From Boothiomyces macroporosus (lineage: Eukaryota; Chytridiomycota; Chytridiomycetes; Rhizophydiales; Terramycetaceae): 64,000 bases of DNA. The notes beneath the pieces are model-generated. The model had not been told where the DNA came from. It ran no database searches and was given only the letters and a program-made list of their open reading frames with translations. Where the stretch lies: NCBI GenBank assembly GCA_027604185.1, contig JADGKB010000037.1, positions 53,505 to 117,504 of the forward strand, given 5' to 3'. The position numbers and the translations under genes are program-made. Shown in pieces: positions 5,453 to 58,340 of the stretch (its first letter is position 1; every line of letters begins with the position of its first letter).

Positions 5453-6752
5453 TTACAGGCTGGTATAAGCTCGGTGAGATAATCTTACTAGTGAAGCTGC
5501 AGTGAACGGATGATCATCATGTATTTTCCCAATCAAGTTGATATTTAACAGTACTTTGGAAACAATTTTCCAATCTTTCTTTTCAAAATGATGAGCGTAG
5601 CTTTGTAAAATTAGATTCACTATTTCTGGAGGAAATTGATCCATCATAATCAAACTGCGGGAGAGTAGGATCAAGTCCTTCACAATTTCTGTTCTTTTTC
5701 TTTGGTTTTTGAGGTTATCTTCGCTCTTTCTAGTAATGTTTTGCAAAATGTGCGATTCGATTGCTTCTAGATCGTCGTACGTGTATTCTGGATTGCGTAT
5801 TTGTCCTATATGAATTGTTGCGTTGGATGTGAGTGCACTTGCCAGAGCAGCTGCCCCTTTTTGGCCAATATTGTTATCGCACAACACCAATTCTGAAAGT
5901 GTAGTATTCTGTTGGATAGCGTTAGCTAGTTCCAAGGCTCCATCATCACCAATAATATTTTCCTCCAGTACGATCGTTCTTAAGCTCTTATTTACAAGTA
6001 GACTCTGGGCTAGATACCCAGCACCTTCATCTTTGATATTATTGCCTTTGTTAGTAATAGTTACTATGTAGGTCTATTTGGAGCAAGCAGCTACTTTGCT
6101 TTATTGCCTCTGCAAAATGTCGGATGCCTTCACAGCAAATGCTATTCAAAGACAGATCCAGTGCTCTTAAATGGTTACTTTTTGACACAAATTTAGAAAT
6201 ATGGATCATTCCTGCAATAGTAATTCCAGTGGCATCTAATCCTAGGGTTTCAATGGCTTTATCCTGCAAAGCGTTCACCAATAAAAGCACTCCATCATCC
6301 GCAATATCATTCCTCGATAATACAAGCATCCTGAGACTGCAATTCGCCTTCAGCCCTTTCGCAAGGTAGACCATTCCGACGGTCGTTATTTGGTTGTTGA
6401 CTAAATCCAAATCCTCCAGCGTTTCAGTTTCATGAATATACTCTGACAAGTAAAGGAGACCATTGTCCTTGATATCGTTGAATGACAGGTCTAAAGCCTT
6501 CAAATTTGACTTTTTCAATAGTGATTTTGTGAGAATGCGGGTGTCTTCTGAATCGATCGGCCTGAGAGTGTTTACCAGTTCATGGCGGTCATTTCGTTGA
6601 AGATTATTGACATAGAGTTCGGTTACGTCAGAAATATAAATATCCAGCGTTTTCATCATGTGATCATTTTCTCTTGCGCTCTCGTATATTGTATCCAAGA
6701 GCTTATTTATTGTTGTCATGGACTTTTTTCTGGTGAAAAAAATACCAAGCAA
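5453..6752 (-). CDS. Leucine-rich repeat protein (ribonuclease-inhibitor type)
   Basis: Two exons joined across a 19-nt intron at 6046-6064 give 426 aa. Residues about 85-330 consist of at least seven repeats of the RNI/NLRC3 type (L-x-x-L-D-L-S-x-N-x-I-x-D-x-G); the intron falls within a repeat and its removal restores L-H-S-N-N-I-K-D-E-G. A non-repeat C-terminal region of about 100 residues includes a motif of the form D-F/Q-FPPEIVNLILQS, close to one in the second LRR gene at 52436-53705, so the two are probably paralogues. An in-frame second start exists 12 codons downstream. Function is unknown; such proteins are usually interaction scaffolds. Confidence 0.8.
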
Positions 6753-7322
6753 ATTGCGGTTAAAACTCCCTCATACAAACTGAAACTGTAGATAGCGGTT
6801 CGGATTGATATTCTTTAGCGCTTTGAGATCTGTTAGCTGGCTGATTTCTTATAGATTTATCCCTGGGAGTTTGACAAATTAGCTTGTTGGCAATAGTAAG
6901 ACAATTACTGTATAAGTGTAGCCCGGTAGATGTTGAGAAGATTAGCCTTTCAGCAACTCAAGTTATAGAGTATATGCGCTTAATACTTGCGCCAACATCA
7001 TTAGCCAGTCCTACCAACAGATCCCTCCATTGTAACAAGATACAAAAGACTGAGCGCGAAATGTCGGATGTATCTCATAGTGCCGAAATCCTAAAACAAC
7101 CCATGATCTGGCACTAATGGCTGTTGATGCTGAATGTCTGGATGAATATCTTCGAATATTTGAAGAGCAAGTATTTTATCATAGAAAAGGTAAAGGAAAA
7201 TTCAAAGCTATAGTAGGCGGGTGGAGCTATAGGATCTGTTCCTGGGCTGTCTATGTTATTAGTAATTTTGCATCACCTGAACCCTTTGTCCACCTAAAAA
7301 ATTCTTACTCTTTTTTGACAAT
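6753..7322 (+). other. Gap with possible short exons, unresolved
   Basis: No secure gene. A frame from 6884 to 7117 lacks an ATG near its start, and a second frame opens at an ATG at 7117. In the latter, 7171-7189 and 7190-7213 look like two abutting intron units (GT...AAAAG followed directly by GT...TATAG); removing the first would end the protein within about 25 codons. A faint resemblance of the encoded helices to the histone-fold protein CENP-X/Mhf2 was noted but could not be made to splice cleanly. Confidence 0.25.
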
Positions 7323-17273: not shown

Positions 17274-18612
17274 ATGTCGATCGTCTACTACAAAGTAAGC
17301 CAACCCTAACCAGTTCAAATCAGCAAAGAATTTCGATACGTGCACATTCGACGGATCAGGAATTTCAGTATTCGATTTAAAACGAGACATCATGATCAAA
17401 AAGAAACTGGGGAAAGGAACTGATTTCGATTTGGCAGTATTCAATGCGCAAACAAACGAAGGTATTAATAAAAATCAGTTATATATTCCGCATATATATT
17501 TATAATGTGTACTTAATATTAGAATACACTGATGATGGAGCTATAATACAGAGGAACACATCCGTGCTGGCTTCCAGGCTGCCAGCAGCGAAACCAGGAA
17601 AAGGAACTGCTCAAAGATATCTAGGTGTAGTTGCGCCTATAATACCCAAACAAGCGGTGAAGCCGGTGGCAATTCCCAAAATGCCCATTAGACCTATGGG
17701 TTCAGGCACGAATACAGCTACAAATGAGATGGATGGAATTCAGCAAATGTTTAAACAGCAAGCTCAGCAATGGGAAGACACTCAAGAGAAATTGGCAACG
17801 TAAGCGCTACTAATGTCAGGGCAAAAGCGGTTTATAGACCCCCTATGGGAGGAGGTACTGGTATTCATAATTAATTTAGGAGGTTTTTATTTCTCATATT
17901 AGGAGGTATCTTGCATGCTAATATAGGCGCTGGTAGAGGCAAAATGAATCCAATGATGTACATGGAGGTACAGAAACCTCCACCCCCTGGATATACATGT
18001 TATAGATGTGGTGAAAAAGGTGCCTGTAGTTAACCAAGGTCATTATATCAATGTCTGCCCAACGATTGGTGATGCGAATTATGACAACAAGCCAAAGATC
18101 AAAAGAGCTACAGGTATTCCAAACACCTTCCTGCAAACAGTTGATAACAAGGAAGCAGTAGAAAGAGGATTGATGTTAACAACTGATGGTAATTTTGTCG
18201 TTCCGGTTTTCAATGAAGACAAATGGAACAAGATTCAGCAAAAGAACAAGACTTTGAAATCCATTGGAGATGCTTATCATACTGCACCAGTCCCGCCTTC
18301 CCTGTCTTGCTTTATTTGTAAAAAGCTGTTGAAGGATTGTGTTACATCACCTTGCTGCAATACAAACTTTTGTGATGAATGTAACTCTTATTTGATTTAG
18401 GCGCACAGCAAGAGCTTTATGATCCGGTGGATGCTTCAATGAGGTATAGATGCCCTAGCTGCGAGCGAAAGTTGGCTCCAGATCAACTTAAAATCAACAG
18501 GGAAGTTCGAAAGAAAGTAGATGAGCATTTGAAGAGCCATATTCAATCAAAGGATGAAGATAGGAAGAGAAAGCATGAAGACGATGATGTAGGTGAACGA
18601 AAAAAGCGTTAA
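17274..18612 (+). CDS. MPE1: Mpe1/RBBP6-type cleavage and polyadenylation factor (DWNN-zinc knuckle-RING)
   Basis: Subunit of the pre-mRNA 3'-end processing complex. The spliced product is 379 aa: DWNN ubiquitin-like domain (residues 1-75, starting MSIVYYKFKSAKNFD), a Met/Gly/Pro-rich linker, a CCHC zinc knuckle (C-x2-C-x4-H-x4-C, reading CYRCGEKGHYINVC), and a RING-like finger (CFICKKLLKDC...CCNTNFCDEC...CPSC), then a charged Lys/Arg tail. Introns: 17295-17313, 17462-17522 (61 nt, an outlier), 17800-17819, the triple array at 17861-17926, 18020-18038 and 18381-18400. The intron-rich 5' half is unusual. If the triple array is removed as one piece the protein loses two glycines and stays in frame. 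Confidence 0.93.
17861..17926 (+). repeat. Triple tandem intron array in MPE1
   Basis: Three canonical intron-like units, 17861-17879 (19 nt), 17883-17902 (20 nt) and 17906-17926 (21 nt), are separated only by the trinucleotide GAG (17880-17882 and 17903-17905). Spliced one by one, the two GAG microexons add two glycines to a glycine-rich linker; removed as one 66-nt intron the frame is also kept. Each unit has GT, a TAAT/CATATT-like branch region and AG. Confidence 0.8.
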
Positions 18613-19329: not shown

Positions 19330-19649
19330 GAAAACAAAAAATCACAGCGTCTTGAATGAATATTCACCATCGCCTAACGAATGCGGACGGTATTAATGAC
19401 CTTACCGGTAATTACAATGGCATCCGAATGGTTTGAACAACCTTGGCAATCATAGCTGAAAATAACTGTATGAACATTCAACCAGAGATGAATTCGTAAT
19501 TCATATTGTTCGGAGATGACCCTTGAGAAACCCTACAGTTCGGACTTTGAACCCTGAGGGTCCCGAAAAACTCCATTTAGAAAAACAATATGAAGTTGCG
19601 TGATTAAGGGTTTTCAAGTATAAAGGATCTCCTTTGATAGTCAACTTTA
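19330..19649. other. Divergent promoter region before first GH19 gene
   Basis: No open frame of note on either strand. It holds the shared upstream region of the uncharacterised gene at 18688 and the GH19 gene at 19650. No motif was recognised. Confidence 0.5.
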
Positions 19650-20678
19650 ATGCTTAAAAAACTTGTTGCTGCTATTACCATTGCCTCTGTTAGCGCCATT
19701 AATTGGAATCGCGACCAAAATGGCGACTGGGCTTCTGACTGTGACTTTCCAGGAAACGACATTGCAAACAAACAAACTGATGGGCCATCTTGTTCAGCTT
19801 TCTGTCGTTCAGTATCTGGTTGTACCCAGTATGCTTACTTTCAAGGGGTTTGTTATGCCAAATCTGGGGGATTAGGAAGAAATGATGCCGTCTACAAGCA
19901 AGGTGTAACTTGTGGAATCAACAATCCACCAGGTGGAAGCTGCTCATGTGGGCCAGGCGAATGTCTATCACAATGGGGATACTGTGGTACAACTGCTGAT
20001 TATTGTGGCACTGGTTGCAAATGTGGTTCTTGCTTTGGGAATACACCAAACCCGCCATCGGGAAACGGCTTGTATGGGTTTACTGTTGACAGTTACTGGA
20101 ATGCCATAAAGTCTTTGAACAGTGGTGTTGATCGCAGTGTAGCTCAAGCCTTGTATGATCAAGTCCAATCTCACTCAAACCTGTTCCCTAAACCACTCCA
20201 TATCGCCATGCTTCTCGCCCATATAATGCAAGAAACTTCTTTTACTAATCTCAGAGAAGAATGCGCACAGGATAACACCTGTAACCAAATCCCAGCATCA
20301 AGATATCAGCCTTACATTGGAAGGGGGTACATGCAAATCACTGGCCAAGAAAACTATGGTAAATTACAACAATTCTCGGGCATTGATGTCACTTCATCTT
20401 GCGGAATCACTTGGGGTGCTTGTGACAAAGTCGCTACTGATATCAACCTCAACTGGATCAGTTCAATGTTTGTATGGAGTTGGAGTATTTCTGACCCTCA
20501 AGTACAGCAAGGTTACTTTGGCAAATCAGTAGAAATCCAAAATGGTGATTATGAATGCAGTGATGGTCAATTCCATGATAACCTGCAAGCTGGACAAAAC
20601 AGATTACAATACTACCACACTGCTCTTTCTGCACTTGGTTTGCCTGGAGATCAATTTGGTTTACAAGGTTGCCAGTAA
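19650..20678 (+). CDS. Secreted GH19 chitinase, copy 1 (PAN-like, hevein-type CBM18, GH19)
   Basis: Endochitinase of family 19, one exon, 342 aa. Signal peptide MLKKLVAAITIASVSA, then a Cys-rich PAN/apple-like domain (residues 17-98), a hevein-type chitin-binding domain (about 99-130, eight Cys, ending CKCGSCFG), a short Pro linker and the GH19 catalytic domain (about 140-342). Catalytic Glu is in AHIMQETSF, a second conserved acid in LREECAQ, and the substrate-binding segment reads YIGRGYMQITGQENYG. Three homologues occur within 8 kb. This copy has no intron where copy 2 has one. No GPI tail, so it should be freely secreted. Confidence 0.94.
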   Translation: MLKKLVAAITIASVSAINWNRDQNGDWASDCDFPGNDIANKQTDGPSCSAFCRSVSGCTQYAYFQGVCYAKSGGLGRNDAVYKQGVTCGINNPPGGSCSCGPGECLSQWGYCGTTADYCGTGCKCGSCFGNTPNPPSGNGLYGFTVDSYWNAIKSLNSGVDRSVAQALYDQVQSHSNLFPKPLHIAMLLAHIMQETSFTNLREECAQDNTCNQIPASRYQPYIGRGYMQITGQENYGKLQQFSGIDVTSSCGITWGACDKVATDINLNWISSMFVWSWSISDPQVQQGYFGKSVEIQNGDYECSDGQFHDNLQAGQNRLQYYHTALSALGLPGDQFGLQGCQ

Positions 20679-20929
20679 TGGACTATTGAATAAAGAGTTA
20701 GAGTTCTAATCGTGTTACGTTAATTACCATCCTTGTACAAGACGGTCATTGGCTCAATCGGTCTCCCTTGCACTGCTTCTTATTAACACATGCTCCATCC
20801 CAATATAGCCAAAGTATCAACCAAAATCACTTACACCGCCTCTTTTAGTGGAATGACCACTGCTCAATTTGGAAAATCGATTGGTGAGCAGGAGATATAT
20901 TTTACCAACAAATCGAAAATGCAGGACCA

Positions 20930-22006
20930 ATGTTCAAGAAAATCATTTCTGCTACTTTGATGGGCTACGTGCTGGCAATTGAATGGACTAGAGACCAGAA
21001 TGGAGATTGGGCCCGCGACTGTGATTTTCCTGGAAGAGATATTGCTAACAAGCAAACATCTGGAGAGCTTTGTTCTGCATTCTGTCAATCAGTCAAAGGG
21101 TGCACTCAATACGCTTATTACAATGGTGTTTGTTGGGCAAAGAATGGGAATCTGGGAAGAAACGATGCTGTAACAAAGAGTGGTGTAATCTGTGGAATTA
21201 ATAATCCACCAAAAGCTGTAGATGGTTCTTGCGGATGTGCTGCTGGAGAGTGCATGTCGCAATGGGGATACTGCGGCACTACTGCAGACTATTGTGGTTC
21301 TGGTTGTAAATGTGGTAGCTGCTTTGGAACTGGCTCAAACACTCCTCCAGCGAATCCTCCACCTCCTCCAGCGAATGGAAACGGGCTTTATGGATATTCC
21401 GTAGATACCTATTGGAGTGCAATGAAATCGTTAAACGGTGCTGTTGATAAAAGTGTAGCCCAGGCTTTCTATAATCAAGTTCAAGTCATACAAACCTGTT
21501 TCCAAAGGCACTTCACATTGCTATGTTAATGGCACATATCATGCAAGAAACAGCATTCACCTATGTTCGTGAATGGTGTGCCCAAGACAACACTTGTTTT
21601 AATTATCCGGCATCCACTTATGAACCTTACATTGGCAGAGGTATATTTAATCTAATTATAAGGGTATATGCAGTTGACAGGCGTTGATAATTACAATCGC
21701 TTCCAACAATTTTCAGGAACAGATGTCACTTCTAGTTGTGGAATCACTTCTGGCGCTTGTGATAAACTTGCGACTGATATCAACTTAAACTGGATTAGTT
21801 CCATGTTCATTTGGTCTTGGAGTATTGCTGACCCACACGTTGCTGAAGGCTACTTTGGGTATTCGGTAAAGATCCAAAATGGTGGATTTGAATGCGGCGG
21901 TGGGTCTAATCTACAAGCTGGCCAGACTAGGTTGAAATATTACCACACCGTGCTATCCGTCCTTGGATTGCCTCCTGACCAATTTGGACTACAGGGCTGT
22001 CAATGA
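20930..22006 (+). pseudogene. GH19 chitinase, copy 2, with a one-base frame break and a private intron
   Basis: Same layout as copy 1: signal peptide, PAN-like domain, hevein-type domain, a longer Pro-rich linker, GH19 domain. At about 21485 the frame slips: copy 1 reads Q-V-Q-S-H-S-N, whereas here one base is missing before GTCAT, so the direct frame stops at 21527-21529, while the correct continuation (H-T-N-L-F-P-K) lies one frame over. No GT-AG intron can repair this. Downstream, an intron at 21641-21662 (22 nt) is needed to restore IGRGYMQLTG and is absent from copies 1 and 3. All catalytic residues are otherwise present, so the break is recent or an assembly error; I therefore call it a probable pseudogene with reserve. 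Confidence 0.7.
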
Positions 22007-22225
22007 AATTAGAATAAATTTAGATATGAGATTTGTCTGTCTAGGTAGTTTAAATAGTGGCAGCTTCGATCAAGATGTACAATTAGCAGTCGAAAGCGAA
22101 TTCTTCCAAGGCGAGGCCCATGCGCTCTGACTTGAATACAACCAAATGTCTCCCAAAATGATTCTCAAAGGCTCGTGGGCTCTGTCGTGTGCTCAACCGC
22201 AAAAGTCAAACAAATTCTTTTGCAA

Positions 22226-23575
22226 ATGCTTGGATTCGTTCAGTTTCTATTCTCACTAGCAAGCGCACTGGATTTGAATAATGAACAAGCAGTTAGACAG
22301 GCTAACGAACAAATTGCCGCAAATTTAATGACATACTACACTCCAAATCCCAATGGTGTTATCCCTGATTTGGGAGACTTTCCTTGGTATGAAGGCGGGG
22401 TAATGTGGGGAGCGATGATGGAGTATATCAAAACCAGCGGAAATGCAACCTTTAGCACCACTGTAGTCAATGCGCTCACACTTGCTTCAGAAGGGCCAGT
22501 TGGCTCTTTCCTCACTGCAGACGAAAATGAAGGTAGTGTATGGCTTGGAAGATGGAATGATGATATATTATGGTGGGCAATGGGTAGTTTAACTGGCACT
22601 GAAATGTTTGGCAACGTCAAAATGCCTGGCGGAGTAACTTTTTTGAATTTAACCACCACCACGTTCAACCAGGTGTATTCATTCTGGGACAACTCATGTT
22701 CAGGCGGGATTATGTGGGCTAGAGATAAATCATCATCAAAGTATGGCTACAAGTCAACTATTACCAATGCGCAGGAAATGATGTTTGGTGCCAGGCTTTA
22801 TCAAATTACAAAGGATGCTAAATATTTGAGCATCTCCAAACAATTACTGGCTTGGCTTAAAGTTCGTTTGATTCAATCAGATTACACAATTTACGATGGT
22901 ATCAACAAAAACTTGAATTGTGGAATGGTTGCTAAACAGCATTCATATCTAAACGGTATGGTTCTATCTGGTTTGGCTCATTTGGCTAGCGCAACAGGTG
23001 ATCAGAGTTACATGGGTGAAGCCGAAGCGGTATACCGAAAAGCAATATCATACTTTTCGCGAAATGGTGTCATCGCGGATGAATGTGAACCAAATTGCGA
23101 ATACGGACATGTGAGCTTCAAAGGAATTTTCATTCGAGGAATCGGTGATTTGTACACGTATTCCACCAATGCTCAAATTAGATCTGAAATCAAGAGTATG
23201 TTGGCAAATACCATTAAAGGCATGCTGAACACTTGTGATTCTCAATTAAACTGTGGCAATCTATGGTATACAAACAAGAAGGAAACAAACGTGCACTACC
23301 AATTGAATGCATTGGAATTGATTACTGCTTATGCGAAAACCTTTGGAATGAAGGGAGAAAAAATGGCTGCTCCCACTAAAGCAGCTACTTTCCCAACAAC
23401 TACAGTCAAGCCCGTCGTTGCTGCTACAACTATACCACCAATGCCATTCTTTGCCCAAACTACTACTACCACGACAACTGCTGCAACACACACCGCAACA
23501 GCCTCAGCAAGCGAGTTCCATGGCTTATCGCATGCAGCAGCCCTTGTTGCTATTTTGCTATACATTTTAGAATAA
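22226..23575 (+). CDS. GPI-type GH76 alpha-1,6-mannanase, copy 1
   Basis: Family 76 glycoside hydrolase or transglycosidase (Dfg5/Dcw1 type), acting on alpha-1,6-mannan. From the ATG at 22226 the protein is 449 aa with a signal peptide (MLGFVQFLFSLASA); the frame is open further upstream but only with a GTG start. The paired catalytic aspartates are in RWNDDILWWA (about residue 105-115). A Thr/Ala/Pro-rich stretch near the C-terminus is followed by a hydrophobic end (AAALVAILLYILE), consistent with GPI anchoring. No introns, unlike copy 2. The role may be building its own wall (Dfg5/Dcw1-like) or attacking another organism's mannan; sequence alone does not decide. Confidence 0.9.
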   Translation: MLGFVQFLFSLASALDLNNEQAVRQANEQIAANLMTYYTPNPNGVIPDLGDFPWYEGGVMWGAMMEYIKTSGNATFSTTVVNALTLASEGPVGSFLTADENEGSVWLGRWNDDILWWAMGSLTGTEMFGNVKMPGGVTFLNLTTTTFNQVYSFWDNSCSGGIMWARDKSSSKYGYKSTITNAQEMMFGARLYQITKDAKYLSISKQLLAWLKVRLIQSDYTIYDGINKNLNCGMVAKQHSYLNGMVLSGLAHLASATGDQSYMGEAEAVYRKAISYFSRNGVIADECEPNCEYGHVSFKGIFIRGIGDLYTYSTNAQIRSEIKSMLANTIKGMLNTCDSQLNCGNLWYTNKKETNVHYQLNALELITAYAKTFGMKGEKMAAPTKAATFPTTTVKPVVAATTIPPMPFFAQTTTTTTTAATHTATASASEFHGLSHAAALVAILLYILE

Positions 23576-23633
23576 AGAGTATCTTGATGATTCACCATCT
23601 CAGCCACATCTTGGACAGCAGGAAAAATTCTTT

Positions 23634-24875
23634 ATGAATCGATTCATTACTCAGTTACGGGTTTTCACTTCAAGAAGAGTAATCAAGAAACCGATAATTA
23701 AACGACCTGCGGTTGAATCTACTTTGCAAACTACTCTTGTGCAGCCAGCAGAACCACAACTACCAGCAGAATTGCCAAGCAATTACTTGAGACCAGTAGA
23801 ATTACCAGATGTAAAGACAATTATTCCTAGAGAATCTCCAGAGTCATTCATATTCAAACATAACTGCCTGGTGGTTGGAAGACAATTGGAGATCATGAAT
23901 GTGATTTTGGGATATGAACAGGCAAACAAGTACTCATTGAACACAATTGATGGCCAGAATGTGGGTATAATTTGCGAAGAAGAAAGCACTTTTAAATCAG
24001 CGATATTAAGACAATTGTTCCGCACTAGGAGAGAGTATAACGCAGATTTGCTGGACTTGAATGGAAATCTGTTATTCAGGTATTGACGCTTTAATATCAG
24101 GATAAAGCGGCCATTCAAGTGGTTTTTGAACTCTACAATAAAGATTTACTACAAGGATGAGGAGATTGGGTTTGTGAAATCTGATTGGCACTTGTGGAGA
24201 AGGAGATATGACTTGTTTGTACAAAACGAGCAGTTTGCAAGAATAGGTAAGCTTGTTATAACCAGATATGGGGCTATGGGCGTGGGATTTTGAAGCTAGA
24301 GATAATGAAGAGCACAAGATATCAGATATCAACAGAAACTTTATGGGTTTTATGAAAGAGGTAAGACACGATCTTATTTATAGATATTTACAGACATGGG
24401 AAAGTATATCGTCCACTATGATGCCACAGTGGACACTTTGGCCAAGATTTCACTCGATCAGAGAGCAGTATTATTGGCGTGCGCAATGTCGATTGATATT
24501 GATTACTTCAGCAGACATAGCAATACACATAGTCCTGGGATGATGCCAATCGTAGCTACTGGCGAAGCGGGCACACCTCCACCTCCAGTAGCTACTCCAG
24601 CACCAGTGCCAGACGTTGGCTCAGGTATCCCCAATGTAGCTCATATACCACTTGAAACTGGTGCAGGAATTCCTAATATTGGATCTACCCCTGATATGAC
24701 ATCCAATATCCCAAATATGGGTTCAACTCCCTTTGGAGATGGTAAAAATCAATGGGGAGATGATGCATTCTTGTCTGATGAGCAAGCAAACATTGCTAGC
24801 GAGGGCTTTGAATCTGCCTCTGAAGAAGGAACGAATCTACTTGGTAAACTTTGGGATTTCTTTAACAATGATTAA
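23634..24875 (+). CDS. Phospholipid scramblase family protein, probably mitochondrial
   Basis: Four exons (introns 24080-24100, 24247-24265, 24361-24383; 19-23 nt), 392 aa. The N-terminus is basic and lacks acids (MNRFITQLRVFTSRRVIKK), like a mitochondrial presequence and the yeast Aim25/human PLSCR3 type. The core scramblase beta-barrel region covers about residues 60-285, with the family segment D-I-N-R-N-F-M-G-F restored across introns 2 and 3. The last 110 residues are a Pro-rich tail with repeated I-P-N motifs (GIPNV, GIPNI, NIPNM), which is unusual for the family. Function in lipid movement between leaflets is by homology. Confidence 0.85.
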
Positions 24876-24886
24876 GTTATATTAAT

Positions 24887-25831
24887 TCAATAAACCGACA
24901 CTAATATTATTGAGACTACCATTAATATCGCACCAATAAATTGCGACAGTCTAATCTTCTTTTTCTGCAGTCCAAATAGGCCATAGTGGTCGCATATTAG
25001 TCCAGTTGGAATCTGAGCAACAACGCTAATACCAAAAAATGTAGATGCTCCAAATCTGGATACCAAAAATGCGACTATGATAGCATAGTAGGTATTGAAT
25101 ACGCACCCAGTGTATGCCCACCATGGAACGCTCTTTAAATCTTTGATATTTACCCGATTTCCGTTCCAGAAAAAATCAACCAGGAAAATCATAATTATTG
25201 GAATCAATCCAGTAGCGATACCCATCACAGTGCTAAATAAACCTGATGTATACATTGCATACTTTGTCAGCATACCACCTGATAGTGAAATCGCTACACC
25301 AGACATTAAAGCGCAAACAAACATTGCAAACCAATACATATCCACTTTTTTGCGATGCTTAGGCACTTGTTTTTCTATATCATTGTATTTCTTTTTGTCA
25401 AAATCAAATGACACCAGTATGATTGCAAGTATTGACAGGAACAACCCAACAATTCGCAACAAGGTAGCTTGCCTCTGCTCCACCATTATTCCATAATTAT
25501 CTAGCAATACAGAAGTTATCATTTGCATGGATACCAAGCAACAATTGACTATTTGCAGGCCCAGTTTGGAAACAGACATTGCAACTGTAATTATGAGCAG
25601 CATGTTGAGCGAACCGCCAAGCCAAGCGTACCATGGAATTTCATTCAAATTATAGCTTGCTGAGGGCGAATAACATAGCCAGACAATCAGGGCCAAAATC
25701 AAATCAAAGACGCTGATAAAAGTAGCGGCAGCTGGAAAAGTAGTTTTGCTCCCCAAAGTACTGTTTTGGGCGTTTTGAACAGCTATGAGAATTCCCCCTA
25801 GAATTACCAGTAAAATAGTGATATCCATCAT
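24887..25831 (-). CDS. DMT-superfamily transporter of the YdcZ (DUF606) type
   Basis: One exon, 314 aa, with about ten hydrophobic segments arranged as two homologous halves, each ending in a W-[WY]-A-[WY]-x-G-G/C signature (WYAWLGGS near residue 67 and WWAYTGCV near 230) and a later G-L-[QI] pair. This internal duplication is the hallmark of the fused YdcZ/DUF606 family, common in bacteria and scattered in fungi. Substrate unknown. It lies 12 bp from the convergent scramblase gene. No sign of recent transfer in base composition. Confidence 0.8.
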   Translation of the reverse strand: MMDITILLVILGGILIAVQNAQNSTLGSKTTFPAAATFISVFDLILALIVWLCYSPSASYNLNEIPWYAWLGGSLNMLLIITVAMSVSKLGLQIVNCCLVSMQMITSVLLDNYGIMVEQRQATLLRIVGLFLSILAIILVSFDFDKKKYNDIEKQVPKHRKKVDMYWFAMFVCALMSGVAISLSGGMLTKYAMYTSGLFSTVMGIATGLIPIIMIFLVDFFWNGNRVNIKDLKSVPWWAYTGCVFNTYYAIIVAFLVSRFGASTFFGISVVAQIPTGLICDHYGLFGLQKKKIRLSQFIGAILMVVSIILVSVY

Positions 25832-26188
25832 TTTTTATTTTTTTTTTAACTTTGCGGGTTTTATACTTCCGCCCCGCAATTTTTTGAAAATTAGTCAGCG
25901 GTCATGCGGAAGTCAGAAGACTCTCCGCAATTACTCACCATGAATGGTTAGTGTGTTGATTTACACATTCATTTGTGTTGGACAATTGTCTTGATGTTGC
26001 GTGCTGTGCTTCAACTCTTTTGATTGACTAAAGTAAGGTAATTGTATTGAGGCGAGGACTACAAACCAAACAAATTCAAATTGGCCAAAGTGGTATCGAA
26101 TAGTAATGGTGAAATAGAGAATCCGTGTTGGAGAACGATAATCTTCAATACACTAGAAATTCGAATCTCTAATTTATTTATTCTGTAA
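25832..26188. other. Intergenic region
   Basis: Contains a poly-T stretch just upstream of the transporter start and a small imperfect inverted repeat with 8-bp arms (ACTTCCGC at 25865-25872, GCGGAAGT at 25906-25913), possibly a transcription-factor site. No coding frame seen. Confidence 0.4.
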
Positions 26189-27307
26189 CTACTGACAACC
26201 TTGAAGGCCAAACTGATCAGCAGGCAAGCCCAATGTAGCCAATACGGTGTGGTAGTACTTTAATCTAGTTTGCCCAGCTTGTAAATTGGAAGCAAACTGC
26301 CCATTGCTGCATTCATAAGCTCCGTTCTGGATTTGTAGAGAGTATCCAAAGTATCCTTGTTGTACATGTGGATCAGTTATACTCCAACTCCAAACAAACA
26401 TGGAACTCGACCAATTGAGATTGATATCAGAAGCCAATTTGTCGCAAGCACCTGAAGTAATACCGCAACTGGAAGTAACATCAATTCCAGCAAATTGCTG
26501 GAATCTATTATAGTTTGCCTGCCCAGTCAATTGCATGTATCCTCTTCCAATGTATGGTTGGTAACGCGACGCTGGAATGTTCAAGCAAGTTCCATCTTGT
26601 GCACAATATTCTCTAACTGCTGAAAATGATGTTTCTTGCATAATGTGAGCCAGCAACATTGCAATGTGTAGCGGCTTTGGGAATAGATCTTTGTGTTTTT
26701 GAACTTGATCAAACAATGCCTGAGCTACGTCTCTACCAACTGATGGATTCAGGGATTTGATCGCATTCAAATAGGTATCGGCGGAAAAGCCAAACAATGA
26801 ACCACTGGATGGAGGCTGTGGTGGAGTAGGGGGATTGACGGTGTTTGGTTGCGGATTGGCAGGTGGGTTTGGTGTTACGGGAGTTGGTGGTATTGGGTTA
26901 GCAGGAGTAAGGCTGGTGAGGCAGTTACCGCATTTACAACCAACACCACAGTAATCTGCAGTGGTTCCACAGTAGCCCCATTGAGACATGCATTGACCAG
27001 CAGCACATCCACAAGACGGATTGCTTGGTGGATTGTTTATTCCACAAACTACCCCTTTTTTGACAACTGCATTTTCTCTTCCCAAGTTTCCATTCTTGGC
27101 CCAGCAAATTCCATTCAAGTAGGCATACTGGGTACACCCTTTGACTGATTGACAGAATGCAGAACAAAGTTCTCCTGTGGTGCGTCCGCTTGCGATATCT
27201 CTCCCAGGAAAATCACAATCGTGAGCCCAATCTCCATTTTTATCGCGAGTCCAGTTGATGGCTACCGCAGAGCTAAATAGAGCAGCAACTAATGTATTCT
27301 TGAACAT
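26189..27307 (-). CDS. Secreted GH19 chitinase, copy 3
   Basis: One intact exon, 372 aa, opposite in orientation to copies 1 and 2. Signal peptide (MFKNTLVAALFSSAVA), PAN-like domain, hevein-type chitin-binding domain, a 40-residue Pro/Thr/Asn-rich linker that is the longest of the three, and the GH19 domain. Catalytic segment AHIMQETSF, second acid in VREYCAQ and YIGRGYMQLTGQANYN are all present. It is closer to copy 2 than to copy 1 in the N-terminal domains but, like copy 1, has no intron after GRG. It lacks a GPI tail. Confidence 0.93.
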   Translation of the reverse strand: MFKNTLVAALFSSAVAINWTRDKNGDWAHDCDFPGRDIASGRTTGELCSAFCQSVKGCTQYAYLNGICWAKNGNLGRENAVVKKGVVCGINNPPSNPSCGCAAGQCMSQWGYCGTTADYCGVGCKCGNCLTSLTPANPIPPTPVTPNPPANPQPNTVNPPTPPQPPSSGSLFGFSADTYLNAIKSLNPSVGRDVAQALFDQVQKHKDLFPKPLHIAMLLAHIMQETSFSAVREYCAQDGTCLNIPASRYQPYIGRGYMQLTGQANYNRFQQFAGIDVTSSCGITSGACDKLASDINLNWSSSMFVWSWSITDPHVQQGYFGYSLQIQNGAYECSNGQFASNLQAGQTRLKYYHTVLATLGLPADQFGLQGCQ

Positions 27308-27761
27308 TAGCTCTTGTATTCTGGCAGCTGCTTAAATAGCAGCCCGCACTCATCAATCACTCCTAAAAAGGAACGGTCAGTAGTTACTAAAGAAGCGGTA
27401 ACCGGGCAAGTAGAGCCCATTTGATTTAGGTCACAAAAGATGCCAGATTAAAGGACATTGCGGTCAACTAGGCTGAGCTAGCTTTGGAATACAATGGCAA
27501 GAGGTGTTGTTAACGCCTGACAGAATTGCTCGCTAGTGAAAGCCAAAGCTGAATTCAAAACTTTGCGGATAAACAAAAGTTTACAAATCATGAAAATCTC
27601 GAAAAACGGATTCCAAAATAGCTGGACGGAACAGTTCAATTGGATAAGGTGGCGGTTGCTAATCCAGATATGATTCAGACAAAGATTTGATTTACTGCTC
27701 CAATTGTGAATCGGCATCGTTTAGGTCTGCTTTCACGAAAGGATACCCAATAAAGGGCAGA
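27308..27761. other. Divergent promoter region between GH19 copy 3 and PPCDC
   Basis: A 79-codon frame on the minus strand (27478-27717) has unremarkable composition and is probably chance. Nothing else recognised; no tRNA signature found. Confidence 0.4.
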
Positions 27762-53947: not shown

Positions 53948-56394
53948 TTAGCTTCTGAATAATTGTACAACCTTGTGCAGCTGCTCCATGACTTGAGGGA
54001 AATAAGCGCCAATACTTTCGTTAATCAATCCATTAAAGTACTGGATCCCTTCTTCATCACTTAGATCTAGCCTGAATCGCTCTTGAACTTTCGAGACTGT
54101 TTTGTCTGGTTCGATCGAAATATCTGGGATGTTTGCGTCTACCATCAAGGAAAACAGGTTGAGAATGAGGTTGGCATTCTTGCGCAAACTATTGAACGCT
54201 ATAAACGAAAACGATTTGAAGGTTTGGTAATTGTTTGAATTGGCACCACCCATCACGTCCACCATTTCTTTACATATTTTCATTGGAGGCGGGAATGGCT
54301 TTGGATCTCTTCCCAATATAAACCCAAAGTCTATATGGAATAAGTTGCCAGAATGAGTTAAAAGTAAATTATCTAAATGCCTATCGCCTATTCCGAGCAA
54401 ATACGTCATTACACAATACCCAGCTAAATTAGTAATAGATACCTGTACTGCGGAGGTAACAATCCATCGTAGGTTTTTCAATAACATTTGACAATGAATC
54501 ACTTAGGTATGGTATCAATGAGTTGTTATTCTCGGACAATATACTCGCAATAGCTTTCGATGGGACAAATTGTATCATTCCTAAATTAGGAATCGCTTAC
54601 CATTATCTATTCCCGTAGCTAGCACTTTATAGGGCATCAACTTCAAATCCAGGTTTTCTTTTCGTAATAAGCGGTCCATTAACGAAAATATCTGCACTAC
54701 CAATTGATCTTGACGTAGATCGTCCCCAGTCTTGAACATGATTGGATATTCTTGCCCGTCCAAACAAGTAAAGGTCAAATAAAACGGAAGTAATGCACTT
54801 TTGAACATGTTACTCTTTTCTGGAATCAACCCTGTAATTTGTATGCTTGGATCTAGAGGAAGAGATATAGGAGGAAAAGACAATAGTCCATTCCTAGGAT
54901 CGCTAATAAAAGATCGCAACTTTTCTACCTTTTTTGGTCTTGGTTCTTTGCTTGCCCTCAGTTCTTTGGACAATTGGGTTAATGAGGATATCAGCTCACC
55001 CTGTCTTCTTAGATTATCCCTTTTGTTTACTCCATCAGGTGTTTGAATCAGCTTTGATAGGAATTGATAAGCTACTTTGGCAAACATCCTACCATATACC
55101 TTGTCTTCACACTCAACCATCAAGTACCAATGAAAGTAATTACCCAAGACCGAATTTAATACACTTCTTTCAATTAGGAATGCGGTGAGTGGAGATTCAC
55201 TATGTTCAAACTTTAGTGCTTGCACCAGTTGTAATAGATACATTTGCAATTCATCATCGCTAGTTCGTTCCAGTTGACTAACAGCAAAAGACCTAACGTT
55301 TTTGTTTGTGAATGCCGGCGAGAGCAGCTCTAAAGCATCTTCAATATCGACTGAAACCCACGAAGATAGTATATCTACAGCTAGCTTTGTTTCTATTGCA
55401 TCAGACCATATGACACACTTTAAGAATTTAGTGAGTGCTTTCTTGTCCTTTGTTAGGTAATATCTAAATTTCCAAACTAGATCTTTTTCATCATCCATCA
55501 GTGTTTGAGTTGGTGGATATCTCAATATTTTCTGGATTAATGAAATAATACATTCAACTCGTCCCTTTGTTTCGCATTTGGCTTCAGCTCCTTGTCAAGA
55601 TTAGTGCGATGACTTCTGTTAAGCTTTCTATGTTTGCTTTCGATTGGATTATCAAATTCAAAATCAAAACAGACCAAGGGTGAATCCAGATCGCGCAAGG
55701 ACACATTTGTATACTCTTTTTCATTATACACAATTGGAAAGTCAAACACTGGGAGATAAATAAAAAGCGAGGGCTTGGTATACTGATTCTGGTATTCTTT
55801 TATCTTTGGGAGTGTGTAATTATCCAGCCACGCTCTCTGGATATCTCCTTGGTTATATTTTCTCATCAAATGATCAAAGCGCTTGACTTCCTTTTCATCC
55901 ACAGTAGTCTTTGGGATTTGGAAATCAGTTTGCAATACTAATCTGTGCAATTCTTTCTTTAATGTTTTGTTATCCCCAAACAAATTGAAGTCAATGAAAG
56001 CTACTTGTATTCCTTGTCTCGGTTTGTAAGCGTCATAGACTATTATGCGAATGAATGAATCTAACGACAACGCTTTAATCTCAATTGGAAACGTAATCCT
56101 AAGTAAGGAAGAGGTACCTATAGATCAAACAATAAAAACCCAGGTTAATAATAATTACCATTCATTCCAAGTCCTATTCTCAGATCCACCAGTAAAGCAA
56201 GGCAGACAAACTGGCTTACCTAATGAAAATGGCTGGCAACTAATGTAGTACTGCTGTTTCAAATTCTGGTAAAAAACATCGTTTAATAGCTGTAATTCTG
56301 GTATCCTAAAGTTACCTTTCAAGTCAATAATTTTAAATTTCAAATTCAAGGAAAGCTCCGAAGTGAGGCAATACGAGAAATCAGTTTCTTGCAT
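53948..56394 (-). CDS. VPS34: Class III phosphatidylinositol 3-kinase Vps34
   Basis: Makes phosphatidylinositol 3-phosphate on endosomes and autophagosomes. Five exons; introns 56099-56158 (60 nt, composite), 55524-55543, 54578-54597 and 54421-54439-like positions at 19-20 nt; 775 aa. Domains: C2 (about 1-190, with T-W-N-E-W-I-T-F restored across the 60-nt intron), PIK accessory helices (about 230-420; L-x-x-I-L-x-Y-P-P restored by the second splice), and the lipid kinase: [12 protein letters not shown] catalytic loop and HIDFGFILG activation loop. The C-terminal kinase tail ends QLFRS. All catalytic residues are present. It is divergent with the ITFG1-like gene, 69 bp apart. Confidence 0.95.
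56099..56158 (-). repeat. Composite 60-nt intron in VPS34 made of three intron-like units
   Basis: On the minus strand: an 18-nt unit (56141-56158, GTAATTATTATTAACCTG, ending CTG rather than CAG), one spacer base, a 22-nt unit (56118-56139, GT...AG), and directly abutting it a canonical 19-nt unit (56099-56117, GTACCTCTTCCTTACTTAG). Removing all 60 nt restores the C2 frame. Confidence 0.7.
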
Positions 56395-56463
56395 TTTATG
56401 ATTTTTTTGGTGAAATTTGTTTTGGCAAACATAAATTATGTAACTTCAGGGTTGCATCATTAT

Positions 56464-58340
56464 ATGGCAATCAACGATTTATTAGTTGGTAAGCGGCTCT
56501 TATTTAGGTTTTTATTGCGTTAATTTAAGGTTTGTCTGGATTGACTTAGGTGTTTATCCTCTAACTTAGGTATCTATAGCTTTATATAAAGGTGTGTACA
56601 GTTCTTAATCATAGGCACGATAAGGTTTAACTTTAGGTTGTTAGAGTTTAATCCAGGGTTCGGAGATTTCAATAATGATTTAAATATCGACTTGATTCTA
56701 CAAAACAATACTGGGATTTCCATTCACTTGTACGAGAACGAAAATTATGTTTTCCATTCATTTATAAACAAATTATCAGTGATTAACGTAATAGCTAGCG
56801 ATTTCAATCAGGATGGGAACTTGGATTTATTACTTGCAACTCAGGATACAGTCACAATTTACAGTTTTAAAAAAGATTGGGAAGAATTGTTTAGTTTCAA
56901 GTATTCTGGACATCAACCATTTATAGCCGATATGACTCGGTCGTTACAGCCAAGTATTCTCGTTTCGGAGAATGACAAGCTGGTAATGTGGAATTACAAT
57001 GGGACCTTTTACAAGGAAGTATTGAATGGATTCTGCAAAGTTAGTGATCCGCACTCTAATGGGTTTGTGGATATGGACGGCGACTGTATGGCAGGTATAT
57101 GATCTTAACAAGACCTGTTTTTGACGTGTATGAAGGATGATAAACTGGGGATTGAAGTTTACATTACGCCAGAGTTTGAATTAAAGTATCAGACAAATTT
57201 ACCTGAAAATGCTGGCCAGATACTCTTTGGAGATTTTGATGCAGATGGTACAATCGATATCCTATTTCCTATATGCAACACTGAATGTTTTATTAATGTG
57301 CTGTATAATATCCAGCTGCCTATATGCCAAGACGACTCTTTGAATTGTAGACAGCTAACAGATCTATGCACACCTTCACCATTCTCATTTGACCCGAAAT
57401 CAGGAGGGAATTATGTCACTTCACCCTTGAACAATATCATTCCAGATTACAGATTGCTCTCCATAAAACTAGGTGACTACAATAATGATGGATTTCCAGA
57501 CTTGTTGGTTGTTGTCAGTAGTAAATACGACAAGTATAGAAAATACATCAGGCTATTGGAGAGTGTAGAGTGTGACTTCACATGTGGAACTAGAGCGATG
57601 CAAAAACGGAGAAGAACTTTTAAACTAGTTACAACAGGTATTTGCTGTTAACAAGGCGTTGATCAGCTATACTCTATTGATTCAGTAATACATGGTGCTA
57701 TGATGGATATGAACAATGATGGTTCTTTGGATGTCTTTGTATCATACAAGCCAGACGGCCAAACTAAAACCAGTGTATTTATCAACAATATTTACAAAGA
57801 TGCGTTATTCTTTAAGCCGCTAGTCTTGAATTCTTTGTGTTTGACTTGTGATACTACCAAACCCTATGGTGTAAATTACGCCGGGGCTTCGTTTAAACAT
57901 ACAGTTATAGATACAAATGGTAAAGTACGAGTTACCCAATCATGTCAATTACCCCAACAGGCGTACATGTCTCTGCAAGTAGCCAATAACGTAATTGGAT
58001 TGGGGAGAACAAACAATTATATTGATAACTTGTTTGTTGGTGTCAGCAGAAATGAAAATGTTCATTACAGGTCGTATCAAGGACTAATTCCAAACAGTGG
58101 TATTGTGATTGGACCGTATGAAGAAAACCACGAAGGTCCTGAAGAGTGGAAGCTGGAGTTGTACATGAACCCATCATCTACTACAAACGCAATCATTATT
58201 GTATTGAGCAGCGTATGTATCATACTGGGCGCCATTATCTTTGGACTCGATTTAAGTGAAAGAGTACTTTTAACTAATTTTAGCGCCAGGATTACATTGA
58301 GAAAAGAGAACAGTTGGAAAATATTGATTTCGAATACTAA
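56464..58340 (+). CDS. ITFG1: FG-GAP (integrin-alpha-like beta-propeller) membrane protein, ITFG1/TIP/LINKIN type
   Basis: Type I membrane protein with an extracellular or luminal FG-GAP propeller, 550 aa. Five exons: first intron 56489-56656 (168 nt, eight units), then 57095-57112 and 57638-57655 (18 nt each) and 58264-58283 (20 nt). Repeats of the form G-D-F-N-x-D-x-x-x-D-L occur at G-D-F-N-N-D-L-N-I-D-L, S-D-F-N-Q-D-G-N-L-D-L, V-D-M-D-G-D-C-M-A-D-L, G-D-F-D-A-D-G-T-I-D-I, G-D-Y-N-N-D-G-F-P-D-L and M-D-M-N-N-D-G-S-L-D-V, several only complete after splicing. A membrane segment (about 495-520) precedes a short charged tail. No clear signal peptide at this ATG, so an upstream exon remains possible. 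It ends 20 bp from VMA6. Confidence 0.9.
56489..56656 (+). repeat. Eight-unit head-to-tail intron array
   Basis: Consecutive units with no bases between: 56489-56507 (19 nt), 56508-56529 (22), 56530-56549 (20), 56550-56569 (20), 56570-56591 (22), 56592-56614 (23), 56615-56636 (22, begins GC) and 56637-56656 (20). Seven begin GT, all end AG, and most carry a TAAY- or TTAA-like branch just before the 3' end. Lengths match ordinary single introns of this genome. Removing the 168 nt joins L-L-V-G to F-G-D-F-N-N-D in frame. Confidence 0.85.

Follow-up and report, generated by a model that had tools for sequence, protein, structure and literature searches.

Eight intron-like units end to end in an ITFG1-like gene of Boothiomyces macroporosus, and further multi-unit intron sites in its genome

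At a single intron position of a predicted ITFG1/TIP-like gene, eight units, each with the appearance of an ordinary intron of this genome, lie end to end. We think it likely that these are complete minimal U2-type introns which are removed unit by unit, and that the array has grown by tandem duplication. We also lean, if only slightly, towards a broader reading, in which chytrids of the Terramycetaceae have an intron ladder throughout the genome: introns of about 20 nt would multiply in place, from two to at least eight units, each spliced separately and in any order. The window, that is, the whole 64,000-nt stretch of DNA that was analysed (G000:C37:53505-117504), belongs to the genome, 15.2 Mb in 216 contigs, of the chytrid Boothiomyces macroporosus (Rhizophydiales, Terramycetaceae).

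The stretch 56489-56656, 168 nt in length, splits with zero remainder into units of 19, 22, 20, 20, 22, 23, 22 and 20 nt, as the earlier note had read them, each beginning with GT or GC and ending with AG. Their seven junctions comprise six AG/GT and one AG/GC (the stroke marks the junction). Only one tiling exists, for unit lengths of 18-23 nt and equally for 14-30 nt, and a spare AG/GT at 56625, within unit 7, is used by no tiling of 56489-56656. A YTNAY branch-site-like motif, its A placed 5-7 nt before the final G, occurs in all eight units. Every unit thus shows the U2-type features tested, namely a GT or GC donor, a branch site, an AG acceptor and a genome-typical length. The array and its surroundings in the ITFG1-like gene are as follows:

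56398..56488, + strand, exon 1 (gene model, alignment), MIFLVKFVLANINYVTSGLHHYMAINDLLV plus 1 nt
56489..56507, + strand, intron unit 1, 19 nt, GTAAGC..CTTAT..TAG
56508..56529, + strand, intron unit 2, 22 nt, GTTTTT..TTAAT..AAG
56530..56549, + strand, intron unit 3, 20 nt, GTTTGT..TTGAC..TAG
56550..56569, + strand, intron unit 4, 20 nt, GTGTTT..CTAAC..TAG
56570..56591, + strand, intron unit 5, 22 nt, GTATCT..TTTAT..AAG; the weakest, below all 412 introns compared
56592..56614, + strand, intron unit 6, 23 nt, GTGTGT..TTAAT..TAG
56615..56636, + strand, intron unit 7, 22 nt, GCACGA..TTAAC..TAG; GC donor
56637..56656, + strand, intron unit 8, 20 nt, GTTGTT..TTAAT..CAG
56657..57094, + strand, exon 2 (gene model, alignment), beginning GFGDFNNDLNIDL
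57095..57112, + strand, ordinary single intron, 18 nt (gene model)
57638..57655, + strand, ordinary single intron, 18 nt (gene model)
58264..58283, + strand, ordinary single intron, 20 nt (gene model)

Seven consecutive AG/G junctions had been held unlikely in a random stretch, and shuffling bore this out. Among 5000 shuffles that preserved dinucleotides, GT/GC..AG segments of 18-23 nt formed chains of at most one unit in 2929 cases, two in 1935, three in 125 and four in 11, never exceeding four, against eight in the real sequence. Stops are present in all three forward frames of 56489-56656, and a single open coding repeat was rejected on that ground. Tandem Repeats Finder identified four repeats in the window, none of them at 56489-56656, and neither the window nor any of six loci yielded an Rfam family.

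Ultra-short introns of about 20-25 nt are known from nucleomorphs. We used a gene finder that combines codon usage with donor, branch-site, acceptor and length models, trained on the window and twenty 10-kb stretches (264 kb). In agreement with the earlier note, the units have the size of the ordinary single introns predicted here. A strict run over the 264 kb yielded 418 predicted introns, all of 18-23 nt although 14-30 nt was permitted, and a relaxed run over the same 264 kb, with introns of up to 400 nt permitted, gave 400 predicted single-unit sites, again all of 18-23 nt, with a peak at 20. Searches for spliceosomal RNAs returned two U2 snRNA matches above the family cut-off and one U1-like match just below it (68.8 versus 69.5 bits). 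The ITFG1 units are intron-like yet weaker than average: ranked against 412 other predicted introns, units 1-8 stood at percentiles 44, 5, 12, 33, 0, 3, 4 and 23.

The predicted ITFG1-like product (572 residues) is matched at 100%, across 79% of its length, by Boothiomyces macroporosus HK103_004490. This public protein, of 450 residues, starts downstream and therefore omits exon 1 and the array; since the array region is missing from it, automatic annotation can overlook such sites. A later start of the gene, at 56463 (MAINDLLV), is possible, and the protein of a relative, P0001, begins at MAINDLLV. None of nine outgroup chytrid ITFG1-like proteins has an insert before the FGDFN region in the alignment. 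Stops, reading frame and homology together indirectly support the view that the whole 168 nt would be absent from the mRNA. Among eight array-bearing proteins tested with Pfam, no domain extends across the junction in the ITFG1 or the Sel1 protein, and for ITFG1 the continuity at that point accordingly rests on the outgroup alignment.

We infer that the units are removed stepwise. Each, equipped with a donor, a branch site and an acceptor of its own, would be recognised by intron definition, and the units would be cut out singly, in any order. As every cut would leave either an AG/GT junction or the final exon join, the product should always be the same. Alternatively, the 168 nt might leave in one step, from the first GT to the last AG, with the inner sites as unused relics of duplication, a course of events that we consider unlikely. 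Over 22 multi-unit sites (described below), inner units do score below outer ones, with a median of 6.4 compared with 9.5 for first units, 8.3 for last units and 8.6 for single introns. However, if the whole stretch were removed at once, unused inner signals would be expected to decay, whereas the ITFG1 array, its units no longer similar in sequence, has kept 8/8 branch sites, every junction and a spacing of 19-23 nt. The signals of the inner units are also not random: the six inner ITFG1 units exceed 776 non-intron AG/G[TC]..AG segments of equal length (p = 3e-5), lying at their 94th-99th percentile. Over the 22 multi-unit sites, YTNAY was found in 61 of 68 array units and 318 of 400 single introns, compared with 260 of 769 AG/GT..AG segments, a set that itself includes introns. 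The weakness of inner units would fit a mode of use that tolerates some failure, since adjacent units might splice across one that fails.

It had been proposed that the spliceosome of this organism may be limited to about 20 nt, and two introns in the window do not support a strict limit of this kind:

17462..17522, + strand, 61-nt intron of a DWNN-domain (RBBP6/MPE1-like) gene, with no tiling into units
56099..56158, - strand, 60-nt intron of a VPS34-like gene, 19 (ending GG) + 22 + 19 nt, with one junction GG/GT

Pfam matched the DWNN domain in full (residues 4-77), with the junction of the 61-nt intron at residue 56, and a PI3K_C2 domain (residues 47-173) spans the 60-nt intron, with its junction at residue 78. 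The stretch 56099-56158 resembles a three-unit array with one broken junction, and the gene model parses it as 41 + 19 nt; since the first unit ends in GG, splicing here would require either an intron of 41 nt or an acceptor of an unusual kind. Introns longer than 23 nt are therefore probably handled, and one-step removal is possible in principle, although both introns could be eroded three-unit arrays.

The relaxed gene model gave two untiled introns in the window and 11, of 46-400 nt, in an unselected 200-kb sample. An untiled 48-nt intron in locus L013 is better accounted for by coding sequence with a GT..TG intron of 21 nt, a parse under which the EVE domain scores 163.8 rather than 127.3 bits, and those in L021 (71 nt), L008 (160 nt) and L019 (73 nt) are probably, as judged by eye and from known homologues, coding sequence with short introns. 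The following candidates come from the gene model:

200-kb sample, untiled: L002 (46 nt), L008 (119 nt), L014 (216 nt), L016 (400 nt), L017 (201 nt), L018 (326 nt), L021 (110 nt)
Pattern-selected loci, untiled: L031 (36 nt), L034 (52 nt), L039 (159 nt)

Model support for the seven from the 200-kb sample ranges from 0.1 to 4.3 nats, whereas 60 sampled single introns had a median of 9.7.

Several other splicing features were noted in passing. The 21-nt intron at L013:7851-7898 (-) ends in TG rather than AG, and a similar 20-nt GT..TG intron is suspected by eye towards the end of the L019 Sec15 gene. At 17861-17926 (+) in the window, three introns are separated by GAG triplets; if a later AG were used, no exon would separate them and the protein would have two glycine residues fewer. 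The L017 gene at 5766-6791 (-) has exons of 3 and 6 nt between introns, possible micro-exons. Elsewhere in the window, the ORF translations of 19641-27331 include several genes with what are presumably chitin-binding and GH19-like chitinase sequences.

A second alternative, to which we give little credence, is that the stretch is partly coding, with about six introns, exons of 2, 26 and 20 nt and 16 extra residues. Such a parse, with six introns and 48 nt of exon, is the top choice of the gene model (25.07 versus 21.0 nats). In its favour, too, the predicted protein of Boothiomyces sp. JEL0838 has the short peptide FILLLRLLKFNP at the place of the array; that of JEL0866, likewise a close relative, has MEGKYLKANE. 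The last residues of the JEL0838 peptide, LLKFNP, resemble the LLEFNP obtained by translating unit 8 in frame, a likeness that would fit a common intron unit as well as a common exon. Against a coding function, the nine outgroup proteins have no insert here, and the two peptides are dissimilar although the 17 residues that follow agree completely, for which reason we read them as intron translated by mistake. This comparison suggests that JEL0838 and JEL0866 have arrays at the same place, composed in part of other units.

The ITFG1 array is not one of a kind: we found 21 further multi-unit sites, and ratchet-like AG/GT junctions without an intervening exon are present in many predicted genes of this genome. 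The 22 distinct sites (eleven of two units, seven of three, one of four, one of five and two of eight) together hold 68 units of 19-23 nt. Eighteen of them stem from loci selected with a whole-genome pattern that requires an AG/GTA junction between two branch sites, and in 5 of these the site lies elsewhere than at the pattern match. This pattern gave at least 55 matches, compared with 7 for its reverse; one that demanded two strong branch sites was too strict and had no match in the whole genome. Of 30 loci taken from the AG/GTA matches, 20 contain a zero-exon multi-unit site in a predicted gene and 10 do not, L048 being counted among the 20 by a neighbouring site, that of L047.

Unselected sequence gave lower numbers. 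In the 200-kb sample, the gene finder predicted 305 single-unit sites, two two-unit sites and one three-unit site alongside the 11 longer untiled candidates, from which we estimate about 230 multi-unit sites per genome, a figure resting on three sites. A plain scan of the 264 kb found, with the score limit set laxly, 9 chains of at least two units where one shuffle had 3; under a stricter limit the counts were 6 and 0. For two-unit chains the excess over one shuffle was modest (7 versus 3 and 3 versus 0, respectively).

The second eight-unit array lies in an unrelated gene:

L050:1407-1568 (on C42), array in a PWWP-domain gene, 162 nt; unique tiling, stops in all frames

Here the gene finder merged units 1-4 into an 82-nt intron and took the others singly. 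Terramyces and Globomyces proteins, two of five matches compared, have no insert at this place and read WWPAK^(I/V)E. With all units removed, a Pfam domain spans the zero-exon junction in 6 of the 8 array-bearing predicted proteins: PWWP across eight units, PH_TFIIH across four, and OGG_N, Hat1_N, Sec15_N and PRK across two each. The match is weak for two of these six, PH_TFIIH scoring 25.9 bits against a cut-off of 27.1 and PRK 22.4 bits against one of 22.

Multi-unit sites tend to lie near the start of genes. In a within-gene rank test, confined to genes with at least two intron sites (two single-site genes were dropped), the multi-unit site came first among the introns of 11 genes out of 17, where 5.0 were expected (p = 0.0018). 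With a cap at 400 residues, the 5' bias reached p = 8e-5, the uncapped version being biased by the 3-kb loci. Within the window, the VPS34-like gene (-, start 56394) and the ITFG1-like gene (+, possible start 56398) are divergent, their start codons lying about 3 bases apart (56392-56400), and both have a multi-unit intron near the start.

The first-intron excess, and the presence of multi-unit introns on both sides of this common start region, would be expected if the arrays were regulated splicing elements selected in first introns, for example as a switch between productive and stop-containing mRNA or as promoter-near elements of expression. We nevertheless hold this to be decidedly improbable. 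A 5' bias can also arise when recombination with cDNA removes downstream introns.

The earlier note had asked for a genome-wide scan for AG/GT at a period of about 20 nt. The expected periodicity was found, in that junction spacing peaks at intron length, while the expectation that every longer intron would decompose did not hold for the 61-nt intron. Across the whole genome, TAGGTA pairs with a period between 10 and 40 nt matched 74 times, with 46 matches at 18-23 nt (6 of 31 periods) and 28 at the other 25; counted as distinct strings, the numbers were 43 and 28 (p = 3e-14). Intron-length periods likewise held 30 of 69 matches for CAGGTA..TAGGTA (p = 4e-6) and 17 of 44 for TAGGTT..TAGGTA (p = 0.002). 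These and the other pattern-search counts are lower bounds. Some junction matches occur twice (C1:393039-393151 and C173:12121-12233; C20:66653 and C20:111720), which suggests segmental duplicates or unmerged haplotypes.

Reversed-pattern controls exceeded the real counts, at 241 versus 74 for TAGGTA..TAGGTA, 115 versus 69 for CAGGTA..TAGGTA and 429 versus 44 for TAGGTT..TAGGTA, as well as 91 versus 78 in the search that gave C1:351620 and C92:40592. We judged this control to be unfair because reversed words such as ATGGAT are common in coding sequence, and used the spacing spectrum within each search in its place. The spectrum is the main genome-wide evidence, and it depends on that judgement.

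Tandem copying of introns, the other origin that had been proposed, is directly visible in some arrays as near-identical units. In L031, two 19-nt units are identical and a third resembles them at 80%. Two further cases come from pattern matches alone: C1:351620-351780, with five 20-nt units whose neighbours are 88-100% alike, followed by two diverged units, and C92:40592, in which three of four units are 79-82% alike. The units of the ITFG1 and PWWP arrays resemble one another no more than random intron pairs do. We propose that a 20-nt intron duplicates in tandem and in place to form an array, and that the copies would then drift until splice signals alone remain common. As splicing would hide the extra copy, the duplication should be nearly neutral.

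The exon base before the site is G in 19 of 22 multi-unit sites compared with 194 of 399 single sites (p = 0.0006). Of the six exon-context features tested, this one was clear, one other gave p = 0.04 and four were not significant. With G at this position, the two ends of the intron may carry a short direct repeat, which could aid exact duplication. A whole-genome DNA search with 56480-56660, by a method that skips common words, returned the ITFG1 array itself only; as no dispersed copy emerged, we rejected the idea that the locus holds an introner or a transposed element. Chance, a minisatellite or an assembly artefact can be dismissed as highly improbable, for although near-identical, minisatellite-like runs exist elsewhere (C1:351620), chance is rejected by the shuffle test and the genome-wide junction spacing, independent arrays occur in unrelated genes with domains continuous across them, and the ITFG1 stretch neither registers with Tandem Repeats Finder nor has neighbouring units more alike than random introns.

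Separately spliced units would resemble several known systems in part. As in the ratchet-point recursive splicing described for Drosophila and human (PMC8605326, PMC5126111), AG/GT junctions occur without an exon between them, and stepwise removal is conceivable. According to these papers, ratchet points sit in long introns and those of Drosophila need a cryptic RS-exon. Here, by contrast, the spacing is 19-23 nt and the total 168 nt, and each of up to eight units in a row is a complete intron. In the ITFG1 array, the next unit starts at once and no separate RS-exon fits between units.

Stwintrons of ascomycetes are, as summarised in PMC12403724 and PMC7138796, nested, the inner intron interrupting a splice signal of the outer. 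They share with the arrays the character of a complex fungal intron, consecutive standard reactions and an essential role for intron definition. In a [D1,2] stwintron, as outlined there, the inner intron splits the outer donor between G1 and U2, whereas the units here lie side by side, uninterrupted and uniquely tiled. The dual-specific splice sites of UBC (PMC10809524) likewise form an AG/GT series usable as donor and acceptor, with a repeat expansion hidden by splicing. The UBC units are coding and their copy number in the mRNA varies, unlike the non-coding intron units of the present arrays. In length, the units approach the ultra-short introns of ciliates, at about 20-25 nt (PMC5014332), a paper whose title and abstract opening make no mention of zero-exon arrays. 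An introner or introner-like element would differ in having dispersed similar copies, of which none was found in the genome for the ITFG1 array. Among the matches listed from open-access titles and abstract openings, there was no description of side-by-side arrays of complete spliceosomal introns, an absence that is not proof.

If the units are spliced separately, they would represent recursive splicing in its smallest form, with ratchet steps of about 20 nt and no room for an RS-exon. They would also show introns being born through tandem duplication in place, one genome offering a graded set of copies, some identical and others fully diverged. Two questions could be addressed in this one organism, namely what the minimal self-sufficient spliceosomal substrate is and whether intron number grows neutrally by adjacent copying. 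If the ladder mode holds true, the number of introns would increase without new insertion sites and without change to the protein.
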